Origin: Anaerolineae bacterium
GTDB taxonomy: Bacteria > Chloroflexota > Anaerolineae > Aggregatilineales > Phototrophicaceae
Assembly (NCBI GenBank): GCA_022841825.1
Contig: JALHQT010000004.1
Coordinates: 372,001 to 436,000, forward strand
Reading direction: 5' to 3'
Length of the DNA: 64,000 nucleotides
The notes beneath the pieces are model-generated. The model was not told where the DNA came from. It searched no databases and saw nothing but the letters and a program-made list of their open reading frames with translations. Position 1 is the first letter of the stretch. Each line of letters opens with the position of its first letter. Of this stretch, positions 20,283 to 51,855 are shown piece by piece. The translations under genes were made by a program, and so were the position numbers.

Positions 20283-22085
20283 ATGACACTTTCCAAGAAA
20301 TCCCAACTTGCGCTGCTCACTGCCATCCTCGTCCTTGCCGCTGCCACACGCATCCTGCACCTGGGTGACCAGGCGTTCTGGCTCGACGAAGGTTCGACCT
20401 ACTTCATTCTGACGCAACCCGATATGTTCGAGGCGCTCGCGCGCACCGACGTGCATCCGCCGCTCTTTTTCATGCTGCTGCGCGGCTGGGTGGCGCTGAC
20501 TGGCTGGTCAGAAGTTTCGATGCGCATGTTCTCCGTCCTGTTCAGCATCCTATGTGTGGCGCTGATCGTCCCGCTGGCGAAGGTGATGAATCGCGGGCGC
20601 GGTTGGTTCCAGACGCCTGTCGTCTGGATACTGGCGGCGCTGATGCTGACGCTCTCCGACCCGGATGTCGTGCTGGCGCAGGACGCGCGGCAGTACACGC
20701 TGCGGTCGGCACTCAGCATCGTCTGCATGATCGGCTATCTGCGCTGGGCGCACAAACCATCGTGGCGTCGCCTCTGGCTGTGGTTTCTGCCCGCTGTCGC
20801 GCTGATGTACATCCAGTATCAGAGCGCCTATCTGTTCCTGCTGCAAGGCTTGCACGTCCTGATCTTCCTGCGCGGGCGTGTGCGAATCGTGGCGATTGTG
20901 ACGCTGGCGCTGGTGGGCGTGGCGTTTCTACCGTGGGCGCTGGGATATGCGCTGGGGCAGAGCGACAACGACTTTGGTATCTTCTCGTCGCTGCCATCGG
21001 ACTGGTGGACGCTGACCGAGATCATGCGCAAGTACATCAGCACGCAGTGGGCGCTGATGCTGCTACTTATGGTGTTGGGGATCGCGGTGCTGATGCCGGA
21101 AAAGCGCCGGCTGAACTTCAAACTAGATGGCACGACCTTTCTGCTGGTGATGTGGATCGTGCTGACGGTCGGCATCACCTTCGTCTGGAACCTCTGGTAT
21201 CCGGTGCTCGCGCCGCATCGTCTGCTGTTCATCTCCATCCCCATCGCGCTGCTGATCGCGCAGGGGCTGCGTAACATCCGTGCACCGGAGCGCTGGCTGC
21301 TGGTCGGCGTGATCACGGTGTTTGGCTTATCGGTCGTGGATGACTACTACCCGAAAGAACCCTGGGACGACATGGCGAGCAGTGCGACTCAATACAGCGA
21401 GCCGGGCGACCTGGCGCTGCTGGAGGTGTATCGCGGCGATAACCCGCTGCGCTACTATCTTGATCAGCAGAGCGGCTATGCACTGGATGTCGAGTCGCTG
21501 CACCGCTGGCGCGAGTTTCGGGCGGCGGAGTATCCGCACGGCATTCTAGACATCATCGATCAGCATGATCATGTCTGGCTGCTGCACTGGAGTCCGGATC
21601 GCTTCGTCTTTGACTTTCTGGCGCAGACCGGACATGTGCAGACGGCGCTGCAAACGACCAGGCATCTCGACAATGATCTGAATGTCTACCGTTTTGATCG
21701 ACTGCCAGACGGCGAGGTTGCGCGCTTCGAGAACGGCATGATCCTGCGCGATGTCGCCATTCACGAGCCAGAGATGCGGGTCGATCTGTGGTGGACGACC
21801 GAAGCAGCGCTGCCGCTCGATTACAGCGTGTCGGCGTTTCTGCTCGATGCGAATGGGCAGCTCGTGGCACAGCACGATGGCTTCCCATTCGTGAATGCTC
21901 GCCCGACGACTGCGTGGTCACCAGGCGATGTCATCTATGATCCGAAGCCGTTGCAGCCAACGGTGCTGCCGCCCGGAACCTACACAGTTGCCGTGCAGCT
22001 CTATACCTATTTCGATGGAGTTCGTTACCCGACGGTCGGCGGCGACGACTGGGCGACCGTCGGGACGCTGATGATTACGCCGTGA
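20283..22085 (+). CDS. GT-C (family 39-like) membrane glycosyltransferase
   Basis: An integral membrane protein of 600 residues. The first loop holds the acidic motif of polyprenol-phosphate-sugar transferases (FWLDEGSTYF), followed by DVHPPLFFMLLRGW with the conserved His-Pro-Pro. About ten hydrophobic helices run to residue 350, then a soluble extracytoplasmic beta-rich domain fills the C-terminal 230 residues. The acceptor is unknown. It is the only + strand gene between 18 and 28 kb and overlaps the convergent aminotransferase by 11 nt. A TATGAT box about 34 nt before the ATG could be a -10. Confidence 0.85.
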   Translation: MTLSKKSQLALLTAILVLAAATRILHLGDQAFWLDEGSTYFILTQPDMFEALARTDVHPPLFFMLLRGWVALTGWSEVSMRMFSVLFSILCVALIVPLAKVMNRGRGWFQTPVVWILAALMLTLSDPDVVLAQDARQYTLRSALSIVCMIGYLRWAHKPSWRRLWLWFLPAVALMYIQYQSAYLFLLQGLHVLIFLRGRVRIVAIVTLALVGVAFLPWALGYALGQSDNDFGIFSSLPSDWWTLTEIMRKYISTQWALMLLLMVLGIAVLMPEKRRLNFKLDGTTFLLVMWIVLTVGITFVWNLWYPVLAPHRLLFISIPIALLIAQGLRNIRAPERWLLVGVITVFGLSVVDDYYPKEPWDDMASSATQYSEPGDLALLEVYRGDNPLRYYLDQQSGYALDVESLHRWREFRAAEYPHGILDIIDQHDHVWLLHWSPDRFVFDFLAQTGHVQTALQTTRHLDNDLNVYRFDRLPDGEVARFENGMILRDVAIHEPEMRVDLWWTTEAALPLDYSVSAFLLDANGQLVAQHDGFPFVNARPTTAWSPGDVIYDPKPLQPTVLPPGTYTVAVQLYTYFDGVRYPTVGGDDWATVGTLMITP

Positions 22086-23352
22086 CCGCGGTCTCCTGTG
22101 TTTGCGCCAGGGCATGCCCGAAGACGGTGAGCGCTGCGTCAATCTCCGCATCGTTGACGATGAGCGGCGGAATCCAACGGATGATATTGCCGTAAGTGCC
22201 GCAGGTGAGCAGGAGCAGATGCTGCTCCAGGCAGGCTTTCTGCACCAACGCGGCTGCTGCGCCATCCGGTTGACCTTCGTTGGTGAATTCGACACCGATC
22301 ATCAGTCCTCGCCCGCGCACGTCGCCGATGATGGGATACTGCGTCTGGAGGCGTTTTAGCCCATCGACTAATCGCGCACCTTCCGCTGCCGCATTGCCGG
22401 GCAGATTCTCATCACGGATCACGTCGATAGTGGCGCTCGCCGCCGCCGCGGCGAGGGCGTTGCCGCCATAGGTGCCGCCGTGTGAGCCGGGCAGCCAATG
22501 GCTCATCAGCTCGCGGGTGGAGGCGACGCACGAAATCGGCACGCCGCTGCCCAAGCCCTTCGCCATGATGATGATGTCGGGGTCAATTTGCGCCTGCTCA
22601 AAGCAGAACAGGGTGCCGGTACGCCCAAAGCCCGTCTGCACTTCGTCGGCGACGAACATGATGCCGTGCTTGCGGCACAACTCGCGGACTTCCTGCAAGA
22701 AGCGTGCGGGCGCGGGCACATAGCCGCCTTCGCCGAGCACCGGTTCGATCACGATGGCGGCAGTTTCGTCCGGCGCGGTCTGCGTCTTGAGCAGCAGGTG
22801 GAGTTGATTCAGGCAGTAATCGCTGGTCTGCTCGTCATCCCAACCGTACTTGTAGCTGTAGGGGAAAGGGGCGACAAGGACCCCAGCAGGCAGCGGCTGA
22901 TAGCCACTGCGATAGACGGTCTTGCTGGTGGTCATCGCCATCGTTTGCGCCGTGCGCCCATGAAAGCTGCCCTGGAAGACGATCAGGTTGGGGCGTCGCG
23001 TCGCCATGCGCGCCAGCTTGACTGCGCCCTCGGTCGCTTCTGCGCCGCTGTTCGAGAAGAAGAAAGTGTCGATATGCGCAGGGGTGACTTCGTTGAGCTT
23101 GTGCGAGAGTTCGACCACTGTGGGCGAGATGACGACGTTCATCTGCCCATGCAGCAGCTTTGCCGCCTGCGCCTGGATCGCGGCGACGACACGCGGGTGA
23201 CAGTGCCCGGTATTGGTGACGCCGATGCCACAGGTAAAGTCGACATAGCGGTTGCCGTGTTCATCATACAGATAGATGCCCTCGCCACGCACAGGTTGGA
23301 TCATCGTCATGTGCGACCAGACGGGAGAGAGATGGTCGGTGGAGAGTGTCAT
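22075..23352 (-). CDS. Class-III aminotransferase (second omega-aminotransferase)
   Basis: A PLP-dependent aminotransferase of 425 residues. Family motifs are GEGIYLYDEHGNRYVDF, NTGHCHPRVV, SNSGAEATEGAVKLAR, FHGRTAQTMAMT, EPVLGEGGYVPAP, ADEVQTGFGRTG and the PLP lysine in IIMAKGLGSGVPIS. It differs clearly from the enzyme at 18771-20114, so the pair is not a recent duplication. Putrescine, 4-aminobutyrate or acetylornithine-type substrates are all possible; the nearby decarboxylase and amine oxidase favour diamines. The ATG at 23352 has AAAGGA upstream. Confidence 0.9.
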   Translation of the reverse strand: MTLSTDHLSPVWSHMTMIQPVRGEGIYLYDEHGNRYVDFTCGIGVTNTGHCHPRVVAAIQAQAAKLLHGQMNVVISPTVVELSHKLNEVTPAHIDTFFFSNSGAEATEGAVKLARMATRRPNLIVFQGSFHGRTAQTMAMTTSKTVYRSGYQPLPAGVLVAPFPYSYKYGWDDEQTSDYCLNQLHLLLKTQTAPDETAAIVIEPVLGEGGYVPAPARFLQEVRELCRKHGIMFVADEVQTGFGRTGTLFCFEQAQIDPDIIIMAKGLGSGVPISCVASTRELMSHWLPGSHGGTYGGNALAAAAASATIDVIRDENLPGNAAAEGARLVDGLKRLQTQYPIIGDVRGRGLMIGVEFTNEGQPDGAAAALVQKACLEQHLLLLTCGTYGNIIRWIPPLIVNDAEIDAALTVFGHALAQTQETAVTA

Positions 23353-23385
23353 AAACAAATCCTTTGGTGAAGGATGGTAAGCAAA

Positions 23386-23519: not shown

Positions 23520-24317
23520 CTACGCACCTGCCTTTGCTGATTTGTCATGGTGGATAGTCGGGGTCTGAAGATAGGGTGAGGTCTGACGTGTGGTCAGCCC
23601 AATGGTGCGGCGTGTGGGATAGACGCGCTCCGGTTGGCGTTCCGGATGATAGTCCGGGTTATTCCAGACCATCAGGGCGGCATTGCCATGTGTATCGGGA
23701 TCCCCCACGTAGTTAGGAATGATGCAGATCGGCTTGAAGCCCATGCGGAACTGCTTGGTCAGGTTGGTGTCAAAGATCTCGCCAGCAACCACATGACGCA
23801 GGTACTCTTCGGGCGTATAGCGTTTGTGATAGCGGTGATAGTCTTTGAGCGTACCGCCAGCAACAAGCCCGCGCAGGTTGAGCTTACGAATAACGTGGCG
23901 ACGCGCATCCGTCAACTCTCGCCCGATGCCGCAGCCCTGGTAATCGGCGTGTACTGCCGACTCGACGCCGTACAGCCAGTTTCCATCAGGGTTGTGGGTG
24001 GAGATCCAGGCATGGTCGGTTGTGATGCGCCAGGGTTCGACGAGGGAACGGGGATGTTTGGGGTCAAAGGCGACCCTCATGCTGACGGTCACTCCCACCA
24101 CACGGTTGTGGTCGGTATCGACCGCGATGAACTGCCCTTGCGGGAAGACCTTCATATGATTGAGGAATTGCTCGGCGAGGATGGCATCCCCAGGATTGTG
24201 AATTCGATCTGTGCCGTAGACCTGGTGCTGGAGCGCTTCCATTTGCGGTGCGTACTCTGGGCGGCTGCGTATCACATGGATATGGGGTCGCGGAGGCTCG
24301 CTCTTTTCGTGGCTCAT
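23520..24317 (-). CDS. GNAT family N-acetyltransferase (tandem paralogue 1)
   Basis: The protein has 265 residues and a GNAT fold. The acetyl-CoA loop is in GVESAVHADYQGCGIGRELTDARR at about residues 115-140 (pattern Q/R-x-x-G-x-G), preceded by the strand with GQFIAVDTDHNRVVGVTVSMRV. The C-terminal part carries GFKPICIIPNYVGDPDTHGNAALMVWNNPDY, shared with the two paralogues in the window. The acyl acceptor is unknown; the amine-metabolism setting suggests a polyamine or amino compound. The ATG at 24317 lacks a close Shine-Dalgarno site: AAGGAAGAA lies about 20 nt upstream with a small GCGC-GTTTA-GCGC hairpin between. Confidence 0.85.
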   Translation of the reverse strand: MSHEKSEPPRPHIHVIRSRPEYAPQMEALQHQVYGTDRIHNPGDAILAEQFLNHMKVFPQGQFIAVDTDHNRVVGVTVSMRVAFDPKHPRSLVEPWRITTDHAWISTHNPDGNWLYGVESAVHADYQGCGIGRELTDARRHVIRKLNLRGLVAGGTLKDYHRYHKRYTPEEYLRHVVAGEIFDTNLTKQFRMGFKPICIIPNYVGDPDTHGNAALMVWNNPDYHPERQPERVYPTRRTIGLTTRQTSPYLQTPTIHHDKSAKAGA

Positions 24318-24532: not shown

Positions 24533-25306
24533 CTAATCCCCGATACCGCCTGCGAATGCTGCTGCAATACGCGGCATCGGCTTCGCCACATGCACGCGCC
24601 GTACCTCGAAGACCGGTGCTTCGGCTGGCTTACCCAGGACGTAATCCGGGTTGTGCCAGATGATCGCGACCGCCCAGTCATGGGTACGCGGGTCGTGGAT
24701 GTAATCCGGGATCAGGTTATGTACCTTAAATCCCTTGTGAAGCTGCTTGGTCAGGTTCGTATCGTAGCGTTTGCCTTCGACCACTTCCTGCACGTACTGC
24801 TCGATAGAGACTTCGTGTGCGCTCAGGTGATAGTCCATCGGCATTGCGCCAGCGATCAAGCCGCGTAAGTTCAGGCGGCGCAAGACATTGAAACGTGCGT
24901 CCATCAATTTGCTGCCCACGCCTTTGCTGCGATAATCCGGGTGTACGCACGACTCAACGCCGTACATCCATTCGCCGTGGGACTTATGCGTGGTCAGTCA
25001 CCCATCGCCGGTGGTGGCGCGCCAGGTTTCGCGCAGGTCTTCAGCCGGGTTAAAGTCGAGCCGCATCCCCGAAGTCAGACCGACGACGCGCTGCGTCGTG
25101 GTGTCGATGGCGACGAACTGACCTTCCGGGAAATGACGCAGATGGCTGCGGAACTCATCCGCGTGGAGAATTTCCGGGTCGCCTGCGTAGGCGATGCTTT
25201 GCAGTTCTTCCATCTGCTCGGCATATCGCTCGTGCGACGGCACGATGACGATCTCGGCATTGGCTATGCGGTTGTGTTGTTTTTCCTTCAACGGGAAGGC
25301 GTACAT
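24533..25306 (-). pseudogene. GNAT family N-acetyltransferase interrupted by one in-frame TGA (tandem paralogue 2)
   Basis: The track splits this into two ORFs (25306-24998 and 24967-24533), but both are in the same frame and join across a single TGA at 25000-24998 (codon 103 of 257). On either side the protein aligns with the intact neighbour: ATTGDG-stop-LTTHKSHGEWMYGVES against ITTDHAWISTHNPDGNWLYGVES, so TGA replaces a Trp. The third paralogue at 38 kb also has Trp there (GHNWLTTH). No other damage is seen in 257 codons. Either a recent nonsense mutation, a sequencing difference, or stop-codon readthrough explains this. The ATG at 25306 has AGGAA upstream, 17 nt after the amine oxidase stop. 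Confidence 0.85.
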
Positions 25307-25323: not shown

Positions 25324-26598
25324 CTATGATGACATCTGTGGGCGCAGGAGAAATTCCCGCGTTTGGTCTGCTGCACGGCGACCACTTACGTATGCGCCAT
25401 GCACCGTCGCTCCCCAGGCGTTTTTCACCGTCGCCTCGCCCGCCCAGAAGAGCGGCGGGGTAGGCGAAGCCAGCGCCGGGCGCGCGTGATGCGCGCCCGG
25501 CGGCACGATGCTGTAAGCACCAAGGGCGTAAGAATCGGCAGTCCAGTTGATCCAGCGGGCTGCCGTCGGCGTCAGGTCTGGAAGACCCAACTCGGTTTTG
25601 AGCGTCTGCAACGCTGCTTCCAGCGCACCCGCTTCGCCAAGCGCGTGGAGCGTGCGGGCATAGTCGCCCGTCGCAAAACAGGTGATGACCTGCCCGCGGA
25701 CGTCTCTGCCAACGCTGGGTGACCAGATCATTGGCGGATTGAAGGCGCTGTAGAACGCGCCAATGCCTTCTGGCATCACCGGTTGGTCAAACCAGAAGAC
25801 CAGTTTCATCCCAGGACCCATCCGCAAAGACTGGATCGTCGCCTGCTTGTCGTCGGGCAGCGCGGGATCAAAGGTCAAGCTGCCACTCTGAAGGACGCCG
25901 ATGGGGAGGGTGATAATGGCGGCATCGCCGCTGAAGGTGTCGCCCAGCGTCGTCTGTGCCTGGACACCGTACTTGCCCCAGGTGATGCGTTCGACGACCG
26001 TGTTCAGGCGAATGTCCAACCCGTGCGCGAGACGATCCAGCATCCGAACGTAACCGCCGACCACGCGGAAGTCGCCGTCACCCGCTTCTGTGTCCGTCCA
26101 TTCTTCCGACGCGGCAATCGCGCTGATCTTGTCGGGCGAGTCGCCGCTGGCATTGGCAAAAGAGCGGCGGGTGTAATGGATCTGCTCATCGGTGAAGCCG
26201 ATGCGGCGCAGGTAACCTTCCAGCGATTCGTACTCGCCGGGTGGTGGAGTCAGAGGCAGTGCCCATGACCGCGTGATGTCGAAGTCGGGATGATGTTCGC
26301 GGGCATGCGCCATCGTCACCACCGAGCCATTGGCAAGGCGGACGAGGGAATCATCAGTTTTGCGCCAGAGATGAGTTTCTAGCCCTGTTTCGCGGGCGAG
26401 CAGTCAGCTTGGAGCGTTATCCCCATGGATAAACTCCGCGCCGAACTCCACCGGATGCGGGGCAAATGTATAGTCCGTGTGTACGCGACCACCGATTCGG
26501 GAACGCGCCTCCAGGACGAGGACATCTACACCGGCATTGCTGAGTTCGCGCGCAGCAGCGAGACCCGCCATCCCTGCGCCTATCACCAGCGTTGCCAT
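25324..26598 (-). pseudogene. Flavin monoamine/polyamine oxidase-like gene with one in-frame TGA
   Basis: The N-terminal ORF (26598-26404) has the FAD motif [27 protein letters not shown] and GGRVHT; the larger ORF (from 26322) ends with FWAGEATVKNAWGATVHGAYVSGRRAA, the family's C-terminal FAD segment. They are in one frame, joined across TGA at 26406-26404 (codon 65 of 424): FIHGDNAPS-stop-LLARETGLETHLWRK. Trp is expected at or near this position in related amine oxidases (from memory). Apart from the TGA the gene looks full length. The enzyme would oxidise amines to aldehydes with release of H2O2. It has its own promoter and is followed by the GNAT gene after 17 nt. Confidence 0.85.
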
Positions 26599-26641: not shown

Positions 26642-26670
26642 AGCATAATCATGAACGTTAAGAAAGTCAA
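26642..26670 (-). promoter_or_regulatory. Sigma70 promoter for the amine oxidase-GNAT operon
   Basis: On the minus strand TTGACT (26670-26665) and TATGCT (26647-26642) are separated by exactly 17 bp. The predicted transcript start is about 37 nt before the ATG at 26598, which has AGGTG at good spacing. Confidence 0.6.
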
Positions 26671-26685
26671 CGGGGGTAGAGGTCT

Positions 26686-26710
26686 GTACCCCCCAGAAAT
26701 TGGGGGGTAC
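26686..26710. terminator. Palindromic hairpin after the decarboxylase gene
   Basis: GTACCCCCCA and TGGGGGGTAC form a perfect 10-bp stem around GAAAT. It lies 27 nt past the decarboxylase stop. On the + strand it is followed by GTCTTTTG. It separates the decarboxylase from the amine oxidase promoter. Confidence 0.65.
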
Positions 26711-26737
26711 GTCTTTTGAGCGACCGCGTCAGTTCAG

Positions 26738-27916
26738 TCAGTTAGGCATGTGTTCGAGTTCGGTCTCGACGTGTGCCTGATGGCGTTCGACACCCAAGCC
26801 GATGAACTGCGGAATGGGGAAGCCGTTGAACGCCGCCGCATACTCGTTGGTGTAGGCACCGGCATCGAAGAAGACCAGGCGCTCGCCGATGTGCGTCTCC
26901 GGCAGTGCGACCTTGCGCGCGATGACATCGCAGCTATCGCAGCTTGGACCCGCCAGCGTGAACTCATGCAGGGGGCGTTCGAGTGACTCTTCGTCCAGCG
27001 GCTGGACAATCGGCGGGAAGCCCTCAAATGTCTCCATCAAGCCGTTGAAGACGCCCGCATCGAGATACAGCCAGGTTTCGCTGCCGCGTTCCGCTTTGCC
27101 GACGACTTCGACCACCAGGCGTCCCCCTTCGGCGACCATCGCGCGCCCCGGTTCCAGGATTAGCTTCATGCCGGGGGTATGCGGGATGTATTCATGGATC
27201 GCCATCATGACATCCATGCCGATGTTCTCAATAGTCGGGATGCTGGCGTCGTGGTAACTGCCTGCCGGATAGCCACCGCCCAGGTCGAGAAACGTGAAGT
27301 GATGCCCGCGCGCCGCCGCCGCGTGCCACAGGTCGCTGGCGGACTGGATAGCGTTGACCCAGTTGCTGGATGACAGGCACTGCGAACCGACATGGAACAT
27401 GATGCCAATCGGCTGCAACCCACGTTCCTGTGCCAGGTCGCACAGTGCGAGCGCGGTATCGCCATCGACGCCGAACTTGCCAGCGAGCGGCAGGACTGCG
27501 CCGCTGTTATCGACGGCGAGGCGGATGTAGACGCGCGCGCCAGGCGCATGGCGGGCGACCTTTTCGATTTCGTACGTCGAATCGACGACCATCGCGTACA
27601 CGCCAACCTCATGCATTCGCTTGAGGAACGGGACATTCTTGATCGGGTTGCTGCACAGGATGCGCTCGCCAGCGCCACCTGCGGACAAAGCCAATTCCAG
27701 TTCGGCGAGCGAGGCGATTTCAAAACCGCCGCCGAGTTCTGCGATGCGCTTGATGACCAGTGGGTTCGCGTTCGCCTTCATGGCGTAGAAAATCTCTGCA
27801 CCAGGAAAGGCACTCAGGAAACGAAGATAGGTCGTGTCGATTGCGTCGAAATCAAGGACGAGCGCGGGAGTGACGAGGGACGGATCACGCAGAATGCTAT
27901 CCAGGCGGTTGTTCAT
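26738..27916 (-). CDS. PLP-dependent ornithine/lysine/arginine-type decarboxylase (fold type III)
   Basis: This enzyme probably decarboxylates ornithine or lysine to putrescine or cadaverine. It has 392 residues, as in eukaryotic-type and bacterial L/ODC. Motifs are the PLP lysine in IFYAMKANANP, MFHVGSQC, DLGGGYPAG, LEPGRAMV, and the active-site cysteine loop GPSCDSCDVIA that marks the decarboxylases rather than diaminopimelate enzymes; the C terminus has DAGAYTNEYAAAFNGF. It is separated from the amine oxidase by a hairpin and promoter. The start ATG has only a weak site (AAAGCGAG). The 230 bp upstream hold an AT-rich stretch with the dyad GCATAA-N10-TTATGC at 27989-28010. Confidence 0.92.
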   Translation of the reverse strand: MNNRLDSILRDPSLVTPALVLDFDAIDTTYLRFLSAFPGAEIFYAMKANANPLVIKRIAELGGGFEIASLAELELALSAGGAGERILCSNPIKNVPFLKRMHEVGVYAMVVDSTYEIEKVARHAPGARVYIRLAVDNSGAVLPLAGKFGVDGDTALALCDLAQERGLQPIGIMFHVGSQCLSSSNWVNAIQSASDLWHAAAARGHHFTFLDLGGGYPAGSYHDASIPTIENIGMDVMMAIHEYIPHTPGMKLILEPGRAMVAEGGRLVVEVVGKAERGSETWLYLDAGVFNGLMETFEGFPPIVQPLDEESLERPLHEFTLAGPSCDSCDVIARKVALPETHIGERLVFFDAGAYTNEYAAAFNGFPIPQFIGLGVERHQAHVETELEHMPN

Positions 27917-28790: not shown

Positions 28791-30476
28791 TTATGTCTCC
28801 CAGTCGGGCACAGCGTCGAGCGTTACGCCATCGTTCAGCGTGACCGCATCTGCCACGATCCAGACCACCTCACCATCGGGCATCGTGACTTGCAGGTACC
28901 ATTCGCGTCTGATCTGCGCTTTGCTCAGGATCGCGACATTTGTTCCAGGAACGATACGCCCCGAACGCCGAAGCCCCCGAACCGGGTCACCGACCCAGAT
29001 TGCGGGTGGGCCGTCTGAGGGCGCATCCCCATTAGCCACGACTCCGAAAATGTCCTCGGTGACATTGGGTGAGTCGCTTGCTGCGATTATCGGTCGGCTT
29101 GTGCCCGTTGGGCTTATGGCGGTGGGGAGGCTGGCGACTTGCGTCACGGTCGTCGCCTCGATATTGGCGACTCTTGGATTGCTTGTTTGCAGGACCAGCA
29201 CGCCCACGATGCCCGCCAGGAGAATTCCAAGCAATCCGCCATAGCGCAACATGCCTGCGCTCCCGGACTTGCGTTTGCGGGAGACCTGCGATACCGGGGC
29301 GGATGGTTCAGCGGCGCGCTGTGGCATGGGCGGAATGGGTGCCGACGCGGAGGCGGACGGTGCTGCGCTCGTCTGAACAGGCGATGCAGGTGGGGTGGCT
29401 GCCTCAATGCGTTTGCTGATGTTGATAGGCACGGTGGGTGCGCTAGTGCTTACGGTCTTGCTGATGTCCACCGTTGCTACCGGACGGGTGGGCGCGTTCA
29501 TCGCATTACGTTCACGCTCGGCGGATTGGGGAATGCCCACGCTGGCAAGCGCAAAGGCGTGCTCAGTCACCTGCTCGCTGATGCGCGTGGCGACCAGGTT
29601 TTCTGCGATGACGCGCTCCTCGATCACGAGTCGCACCATGACCGCCGCGCGTCCCAGGTACGCTGTATCCCTGGGCAGCAGAGTAAAGATGATCGTGCGG
29701 GTGTCGTGATCCGGTTGGATTTCGACTTCAGCCGCGCCTTCGCCGCAGGCGTTGTTCGGATACTGCACAGCGTATTGCTCGGATGAAACCTGGATGCAGG
29801 CGCTGACCGGGAGCAGTGTGCCGTCTGCCGCGCGCGGGAAGGTGAGCGGAAAGGTTGCCGCCCGCACATCGTCCTTCTTGATCTCGTCGCCATACTCTGT
29901 TAGATCCGGGAGTTCACCGCGCAGCCCCTGCGTATCGAGCTGGCTGATCTTGACGCGCACCTCGGTCGGGATGGCGCGGGCGGTCTGGCGTGGCATGGCA
30001 GATTCCAGGCGGCGTTCCTGCACGGTGCGGGTCGATGACGGCTTCATAAAGCCGCGCGGAGTCGGAACCTCGATATGGACTTCCTCGCCGCGCCGATTCT
30101 TGGGCGGCAGAACTTTGGCGAGCGCAGAATAGAATTCATCTCTGGGCAGCGACGCATTGCGCACATTGGCGAACTGCGTCAGGATGAGACGGGGGAAGAC
30201 TTCCCCTGCCAGCAGCAGTGGGAAGATCGGCTTGCCCTGGTTTTCGGCATAAGCCAGCTCGCGGGGCACCCAGGCGCTGGCGGCAGCCTCCGGCGACATG
30301 ATGACCAGCACGGCTGCCGCCTGGTCGATTGCCTGGACGATGGCGGATTCCCAGTTGTCGCCGTACTCAATGTGGGCGTCGAACCAGACGTCAAAGCCAC
30401 GCTCAAGCAGGCTGTCCACAAGTTTACGAACGTACTCGATGTCCCGTCGGCTGTAGGAAATAAAAAGATGTGACAT
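28791..30476 (-). CDS. TIR domain membrane protein with beta-sandwich and C-terminal SH3-like domain
   Basis: The protein has 561 residues. The TIR domain (about 1-110) begins MSHLFISYSRRD and includes the position of the NADase-type glutamate, E73 in SAWVPRELAYAENQ. A beta-rich region at about 170-320 follows, then an Ala/Pro/Ser-rich linker, one transmembrane helix (about 405-430, YGGLLGILLAGIVGVLVL) and an extracytoplasmic domain ending in an SH3-like fold (GTNVAILSKAQIRREWYLQV, GEVVWIVADAV). TIR domains of this family cleave NAD or make signal nucleotides, or act as scaffolds. A cytoplasmic TIR domain joined to an outside sensor suggests transmembrane signalling or defence. GGGGCAAGGGG precedes the ATG. 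Confidence 0.85.
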   Translation of the reverse strand: MSHLFISYSRRDIEYVRKLVDSLLERGFDVWFDAHIEYGDNWESAIVQAIDQAAAVLVIMSPEAAASAWVPRELAYAENQGKPIFPLLLAGEVFPRLILTQFANVRNASLPRDEFYSALAKVLPPKNRRGEEVHIEVPTPRGFMKPSSTRTVQERRLESAMPRQTARAIPTEVRVKISQLDTQGLRGELPDLTEYGDEIKKDDVRAATFPLTFPRAADGTLLPVSACIQVSSEQYAVQYPNNACGEGAAEVEIQPDHDTRTIIFTLLPRDTAYLGRAAVMVRLVIEERVIAENLVATRISEQVTEHAFALASVGIPQSAERERNAMNAPTRPVATVDISKTVSTSAPTVPINISKRIEAATPPASPVQTSAAPSASASAPIPPMPQRAAEPSAPVSQVSRKRKSGSAGMLRYGGLLGILLAGIVGVLVLQTSNPRVANIEATTVTQVASLPTAISPTGTSRPIIAASDSPNVTEDIFGVVANGDAPSDGPPAIWVGDPVRGLRRSGRIVPGTNVAILSKAQIRREWYLQVTMPDGEVVWIVADAVTLNDGVTLDAVPDWET

Positions 30477-37889: not shown

Positions 37890-38861
37890 TCAGATTTCAG
37901 GTTGGCGAAAAGCACCTGCCTCATCCGGTGCGTAGGGCACGACGCGGATGACGGCGTCGAGATTGAGCGGCGCGTAGAGATGCGGGAATCGCTCGTGCGC
38001 GCGCTCTGGGTTCCGGGGCGCTTCGTAGACGAGCGGTGTCGTCAGCTTGCCCGGATCGATCTCCAAGAGAAGGACGTCCTGCCTTCCGGCATAGTAGCGA
38101 TTGGCGCTGCCCGCGACCTGCTCCAGCGTCGAAAAGTGTATGAAGCCCTCCTTTGCCAGGCTGGACGCGCTGTAATGGGTTCCGCCGCGCGCGCTGTCCC
38201 AGGCTGCCTGTGTGATGATGTGATAGATCATGGTTTGTCCTTGATAGTCCGGGTTTTCGCGCATGAGCAGCGTGGCGGTGTTATCCGAGCGCGGGTCGGT
38301 CACGTAGCCATAGAGCAGGCGGACAAAGCGCAATCCGCTGCGGAGCTGGGGCGTCAGCGTTGGGTCGGTCAGCTCGCCCGCGACCACACGCGCCGCATAC
38401 GTCTCGATGCTCATGCCGCGATGCGTGTCATAGCCCGGCAGCAGCCCGGCGACCAGCTCGCCGCGCAGCCCTAATCGCCGCGCGAGTTTCTGTCGTTCGG
38501 CATAGAACAGCTTCGCGATGCCCATCCGTCGAAAATCGGGATGCACGCTCATGTCGATGCCATACAGCCAGACGCCGTTTGGCTCGTGCGTGGTCAGCCA
38601 GTTGTGCCCGATGAACGGAATGTAGTGGGCGGGCGGCGGATCGAAGTTCGTGCGCATACTGGTCGATGCGGCGGCGAGGCGCACCCCATCCGGCGCATGT
38701 GCCAGCGCGACGAACTGCCCTTCCGCGAATACCCGCATATGGCTGCGATAATGCTCCGCCGTGAAGTAGTCTTCTTCCGGCAGGGTAGGGAAGCATGCGC
38801 GCTGCATATCAGCGGCGGCTTCCGCGTGTTCCTCGCGCGTGTTGACGATCTCAAGCTTCAT
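37890..38861 (-). CDS. GNAT acetyltransferase fused to a DUF952 domain
   Basis: The protein has 323 residues. Residues 1-210 are a GNAT domain of the same subfamily as the tandem paralogues at 23.5-25.3 kb, with GHNWLTTHEPNGVWLYGIDMSVHPDFRRMGIAKLFYAER (acetyl-CoA loop RRMGIA) and NPDY near the end. Residues about 212-320 are a DUF952 domain: IYHIITQAAWDSARGGTHYSASSLAKEGFIHFST, ... LLEIDPGKLTTPLVYEAP, FPHLYAPLNLDAVIRVVPY. DUF952 proteins are usually stand-alone and of unknown function. No frameshift is needed. The ATG at 38861 follows a weak AAGAAGAAC-like site. Confidence 0.9.
   Translation of the reverse strand: MKLEIVNTREEHAEAAADMQRACFPTLPEEDYFTAEHYRSHMRVFAEGQFVALAHAPDGVRLAAASTSMRTNFDPPPAHYIPFIGHNWLTTHEPNGVWLYGIDMSVHPDFRRMGIAKLFYAERQKLARRLGLRGELVAGLLPGYDTHRGMSIETYAARVVAGELTDPTLTPQLRSGLRFVRLLYGYVTDPRSDNTATLLMRENPDYQGQTMIYHIITQAAWDSARGGTHYSASSLAKEGFIHFSTLEQVAGSANRYYAGRQDVLLLEIDPGKLTTPLVYEAPRNPERAHERFPHLYAPLNLDAVIRVVPYAPDEAGAFRQPEI

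Positions 38862-51761: not shown

Positions 51762-51855
<94 letters not shown>

Follow-up and report, generated by a model that had tools for sequence, protein, structure and literature searches.

Can a gene with a stop codon in its interior, where its relatives encode tryptophan, still yield its enzyme? The question is raised by a GNAT-superfamily gene on the minus strand of the 64,000-nucleotide stretch of DNA analysed here (the window). A preliminary description of the locus took two open reading frames, 25306-24998 and 24967-24533, for one frame with a TGA in place of a conserved Trp. In accordance, positions 24533-25306 read as a single gene of 257 aa that ends with TAG, and the TGA at codon 103 (24998-25000) is the sole stop inside the frame, so that the gene is free of other lesions, as had been claimed. 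Alignment of homologous copies places this TGA at a Trp column. The intact tandem paralogue (23520-24317, minus strand) has TGG at the same column, and Trp is also present in the paralogue at 38 kb, in agreement with the earlier reading. Also in the window, the product of 37890-38861 (minus strand) is GNAT-like in its N-terminal half, which is fused to a DUF952 domain.

The readthrough product of the GNAT gene matches Pfam Acetyltransf_1 (3.6e-06), and its AlphaFold2 model has a mean pLDDT of 84. The nearest fold matches of the model are GNAT-like decarboxylases (CurA, GphF, and SxtA) and N-acetyltransferases; when the GNAT alignment was run as a profile against solved structures, no match was obtained. 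In the model, codon 103 is positioned between helix 95-99 and strand 113-121. Therefore, truncation at the TGA would cost more than half of the GNAT fold.

A second interrupted gene adjoins the first. The flavin amine oxidase gene (25324-26598, minus strand; 424 aa, TAG terminator) lies 17 nt upstream of the GNAT start codon, and its codon 65 is a TGA (26404-26406), again at a Trp column and followed by CTG (26401-26403). This TGA, which the preliminary description overlooked, is the sole in-frame stop of the gene. The readthrough product matches Pfam Amino_oxidase (1.2e-67), and the sequence matches include LSD1/2, polyamine oxidases, and spermine oxidases. The TGA occupies one column across 19 distinct oxidase copies, and among the nearest oxidases without the TGA, four have Trp at this position and one has Ser. 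In three genomes, the oxidase is partly deleted or degraded and the neighbouring TGA-bearing GNAT gene is kept (G013, C34:50400-50979; G011, C48:1631-1913; G004, C55:299681-299911), indicating that the oxidase is dispensable there.

Conservation and coding constraint

We searched for GNAT orthologues in 60 relatives and then in 98 genomes of one Chloroflexota family, which belongs to the class Anaerolineae. TGA-bearing orthologues are found in 34 genomes from six genera of this family, at about 50-65% protein identity. The TGA falls in one alignment column in 33 distinct copies, the window copy included, and 28 homologous copies have TGG at that column. None of the GNAT matches in f2-f8, families of the same order, carries a TGA. 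We built a protein tree from 63 GNAT copies after masking the TGA column. It requires a minimum of 5 changes between TGA and non-TGA, compared with about 21 when the labels are shuffled, indicating an old trait that has mostly passed by descent and has switched only occasionally.

The region 3′ of the TGA evolves as coding sequence. In comparisons of 528 GNAT pairs, nonsynonymous differences have a median of 0.39 for the codons that precede the TGA and 0.24 for those that follow it; for the 12 closest pairs, dN/dS ranges over 0.06-0.24 on the 5′ side and 0.05-0.13 on the 3′ side. The coding constraint 3′ of the TGA is thus at least as strong as that 5′ of it. The suggestion that selection acts on the rest of the gene is therefore supported: relaxation 3′ of the TGA, which the preliminary description had itself named as evidence to the contrary, is not found. 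The downstream half of the GNAT gene is very likely translated and useful.

The interruption could instead mark a pseudogene or an error of sequencing or assembly. Intact TGG paralogues do adjoin the GNAT gene, and a few relatives have a degraded oxidase gene, as described above. Against this, the same base is present in 34 genomes, constraint persists after the stop, and nearly all GNAT copies are without a second lesion, with no lesion other than the TGA recurring. Because separately assembled genomes of such divergence share this TGA, an error at base 24998 is ruled out, and a systematic sequencing error at the motif, with both sites really TGGCTG, is rejected on the same conservation. We regard the chance that either gene is simply broken or misread as practically negligible. 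GNAT copies with TGG stand in the same tandem arrays as the TGA copy, so the TGA copy may be non-essential.

The nucleotides that follow the TGA

In our alignments, the conservation extends beyond the stop codon. The codon immediately 3′ of the GNAT TGA (24995-24997 in the window) is CTG in 33/33 TGA copies and in 13/28 TGG homologues; among Leu codons the difference gives a Fisher p=3e-5, with sequences treated as independent although they share ancestry. Other conserved Leu columns of the TGA-bearing GNAT copies use mixed codons, and TGACTGA is the longest invariant run of the 33-copy alignment. In the oxidase, the codon after the TGA is CTG in 18 of the 19 copies and CTT in the remaining one. 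Leu therefore follows in 19/19 TGA copies, compared with 0/20 non-TGA homologues (Fisher p=1e-11, again with sequences of shared ancestry treated as independent), in which the residue after Trp is commonly Asp or Glu. Because this Leu occurs solely in the TGA oxidases, the protein sequence appears to have been altered to supply CU after the UGA.

Two marks of programmed readthrough are thus observed: an in-frame stop kept with coding constraint on both sides, and a nucleotide context kept beyond what the protein requires. The same hexamer in two unrelated gene families is hard to explain other than by a shared rule, and from these comparisons it is nearly certain that UGA recoding is conserved in both genes.

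Work on a fungus points to a role for the two nucleotides next to the stop: UGA-CU is the minimal readthrough context there, is sufficient, and is also effective in human cells (PMC4207609). In 1.66 Mb of the genome to which the window belongs, UGA-CU accounts for 10 of the 457 TGA terminators of long ORFs, and CU follows other stops in 38/727 cases (Fisher p=0.01). Such a deficit is expected if UGA-CU terminates poorly.

Decoding of the UGA

We scanned for interrupted genes ab initio in a 436-kb stretch that includes the window and, more widely, in the 1.66 Mb, which represents 28% of the genome. In the 436 kb, the only convincing genes interrupted by TGA-CTG are those of the GNAT protein and the oxidase. 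Internal stops of any kind in the 1.66 Mb are mainly adjacent genes in the same frame, plus one selenoprotein-like gene. Together, these scans indicate that the code is not reassigned. In addition, TGA is the terminator of 457 of the 1184 long ORFs in the 1.66 Mb, and a genome-wide UGA = Trp code (table 4) is rejected.

The selenoprotein-like gene belongs to the AhpC/TSA family, and its in-frame TGA forms the U of a U-x-x-C motif (GUIFC; G000, C1:748189, minus strand; L246:7764-8342). Judged by this motif, it is probably a true selenoprotein. Its presence, together with that of SelA, SelB, and a tRNA-Sec (51762-51855, plus strand) in the window's genome, raises the possibility that the GNAT protein and the oxidase are unrecognised selenoproteins, which likewise have an in-frame UGA in an enzyme gene. 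However, SelA, SelB, and tRNA-Sec are all absent from six TGA carriers (G003, G004, G008, G010, G011, and G014), where absence means SelB below the cut-off and tRNA-Sec below the gathering score, and 5/6 of these genomes are 91-96% complete. SelA and SelB are also absent from G063, G070, and G076. Cys is found at the TGA position in none of the aligned GNAT or oxidase homologues, and the non-TGA GNAT homologues mostly have Trp. Moreover, the letters after the TGA amount to one fixed codon, and no conserved SECIS-like hairpin was found. Selenocysteine is therefore a highly improbable residue at these codons.

The tRNA-Sec is the only tRNA with a UCA anticodon found in the window's genome by RF00005 and ARAGORN, and a suppressor tRNA(UCA) is accordingly rejected for this genome. 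A single tRNA-Trp (CCA) is found among its tRNA genes (L194 / L134:824-895). It has a U-U mismatch at 31:39, which leaves an anticodon stem of 4 bp that is open at its base. All tRNA-Trp sequences read from g13 have a 31:39 mismatch, in carriers and the non-carrier alike. Across carriers, a mismatched 31:39 pair occurs in the window's genome and in one other genus, and U11-A24 occurs in others. Both features are common across the family, several non-carriers included, and carriers G002, G003, G013, G015, and G035 have neither. A tRNA-Trp variant (G24A or a 4-bp anticodon stem) is thus rejected as the general cause; it may help UGA reading, but it is not the switch.

A 4-bp anticodon-stem tRNA-Trp(CCA) that reads UGA as Trp accompanies stop-to-Trp reassignment in other bacteria (PMC13092985), and that study reports G24A and A9C as further tRNA-Trp changes that promote readthrough. 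The resemblance would lie in a tRNA-Trp(CCA) that decodes UGA as Trp, and in the mismatched 31:39 pair of the window's tRNA-Trp, although this pair is of the bottom-unpinned stem type set aside in that study. In contrast, there is no reassignment here, the recoding is limited to specific genes with CTG, and some carriers lack the tRNA feature.

Each of the 15 genomes checked has release factor 2, encoded by a prfB without an in-frame stop. A +1 frameshift of the prfB type, for which UGA-C would be the context, is rejected, because the same frame is conserved 3′ of the TGA. No conserved covarying RNA structure follows the TGA; the consensus is weak (-4.2 kcal/mol) and shows little covariation. 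With the tRNA, RNA-structure, and selenocysteine explanations failing, the UGA-CU context is the remaining common factor.

A-to-I editing of the mRNA would convert UGA to UGI, to be read as UGG, with CUG as part of the editing site. Like readthrough, it would yield Trp and need conserved flanking letters. Bacterial TadA editing sites are UACG-like. Premature stop codons are edited in fungi, and TadA catalyses mRNA editing in bacteria. The fungal editing has a preference for U at -1 and for hairpin loops (PMC11156358), but here G precedes the A, and no conserved hairpin is found at the TGA. We consider editing unlikely and infer that the recoding occurs at translation.

Alternatively, UGA-CUG could be given a sense meaning, possibly as an unusual amino acid, by a tRNA that escaped detection or by a decoding factor dedicated to it. 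The nearly absolute coupling to CTG in two unrelated genes would fit such a factor, as would the lack of any tRNA-Trp feature that accounts for all TGA-bearing genomes. However, the tRNA search in the window's genome, which has both TGA genes, gave no second UCA tRNA, and ordinary Trp is the simplest reading because most homologues have Trp at the position. We give this alternative only a slim chance.

The sequence comparisons are best explained by programmed, gene-specific readthrough of UGA-CUG, with Trp inserted by near-cognate tRNA-Trp, to which we assign a probability of roughly 0.78. In this mechanism, the UGA would be kept where the protein needs Trp, in both the oxidase and the GNAT gene, inside a context that terminates weakly. 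Some ribosomes would take near-cognate Trp-tRNA(CCA) at the UGA over release factor 2 and complete the full-length enzyme; the remaining ribosomes would release a short N-terminal fragment, which is probably inactive. Elsewhere in the genome, UGA acts as a normal stop. Both the identity of the inserted residue as Trp and the efficiency of its insertion are presumed from this scheme.

The proposed readthrough resembles the UGA-CU(A) readthrough of fungi and animals in its core motif, UGA then CU, and in near-cognate decoding, which is presumed there (PMC4207609). It differs in that the ribosome and release factor are bacterial, the stop lies inside one enzyme domain and not before a C-terminal extension, and the third base after the UGA is G instead of A. 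That two adjacent genes carry the same UGA-CUG family-wide, with the minimal motif of fungi and animals, suggests a weak-termination context shared across domains of life. The two genes would offer a natural test case for competition between release factor 2 and tRNA-Trp. Deliberate readthrough has seldom been described for bacteria. In the open-access papers searched, we found no report of deeply conserved stop-codon readthrough within ordinary bacterial enzymes, nor, in those on bacterial programmed readthrough or Chloroflexi recoding, of the GNAT/oxidase case. Gene callers will split such genes or drop them as broken.

The amine-metabolism cluster

In the window's genome and two relatives, the genes are ordered decarboxylase, amine oxidase, GNAT, GNAT paralogue(s), and aminotransferase; the oxidase-GNAT pair is spread more widely than the full cluster. 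The decarboxylase (26738-27916, minus strand) is PLP-dependent and, by its domains, of the ornithine/DAP/arginine type, and the class-III aminotransferase (22075-23358) lies on the same strand and is conserved in the cluster. The decarboxylase domains and the oxidase matches together make polyamine or related amine metabolism the likely function. Between the decarboxylase and the oxidase there is a 12-pair hairpin (26685-26711) that resembles a terminator or attenuator. Upstream of the oxidase, a promoter-like TTGACT-17-TATGCT (26642-26670, minus strand) is recognised by its match to the consensus, and two relatives have a TTGACT box at the corresponding position.

The location of the genes in this cluster makes control by polyamine level plausible. 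In human cells, spermidine increases UGA-CUAG readthrough more than 20-fold through near-cognate decoding (PMC9841425), which makes a polyamine-sensing readthrough switch on amine-consuming enzymes an attractive hypothesis. By this analogy, UGA-CUG could act as a metabolite-sensing switch, in which a rise in amine or polyamine would give more readthrough and hence more oxidase and acetyltransferase; we put this forward tentatively, as a doubtful proposal. More generally, the readthrough would presumably serve to limit or regulate the enzyme level, possibly with a polyamine response, and the two genes are candidates for a bacterial metabolic control that works through readthrough.

The antizyme frameshift, OPRL1 UGA-CUAG (PMC9841425), and AMD1 readthrough (PMC13025110) are likewise recoding events at a stop codon, and the cluster, with its decarboxylase, adds to the likeness with polyamine-responsive recoding. 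Those systems are eukaryotic, however, antizyme uses +1 frameshifting, and the polyamine response is only hypothesised here. If true, the switch would be a bacterial counterpart of antizyme feedback.

The decarboxylase itself terminates with TGA-CTG (26740-26735, minus strand) in the window's genome and two relatives, and it may belong to the same recoding circuit. Readthrough of this stop would append similar 10-aa tails in G002 and G013 (LTRHDFVSAN and LTRHEDVSQN; L144 and L145). In the window's genome, the next stop would be reached just two residues beyond the UGA.

Two minor observations concern other sequences. At 28791-30476 of the window (minus strand), the first 92 residues of the encoded protein show weak similarity to two anti-phage models, Thoeris ThcB4 and retron-TIR, with scores below the cut-offs. 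JAHHHY010000009.1 (L284), titled as the cyanobacterium Pleurocapsa minor, belongs to the Chloroflexota genome G012 and is apparently mislabelled.
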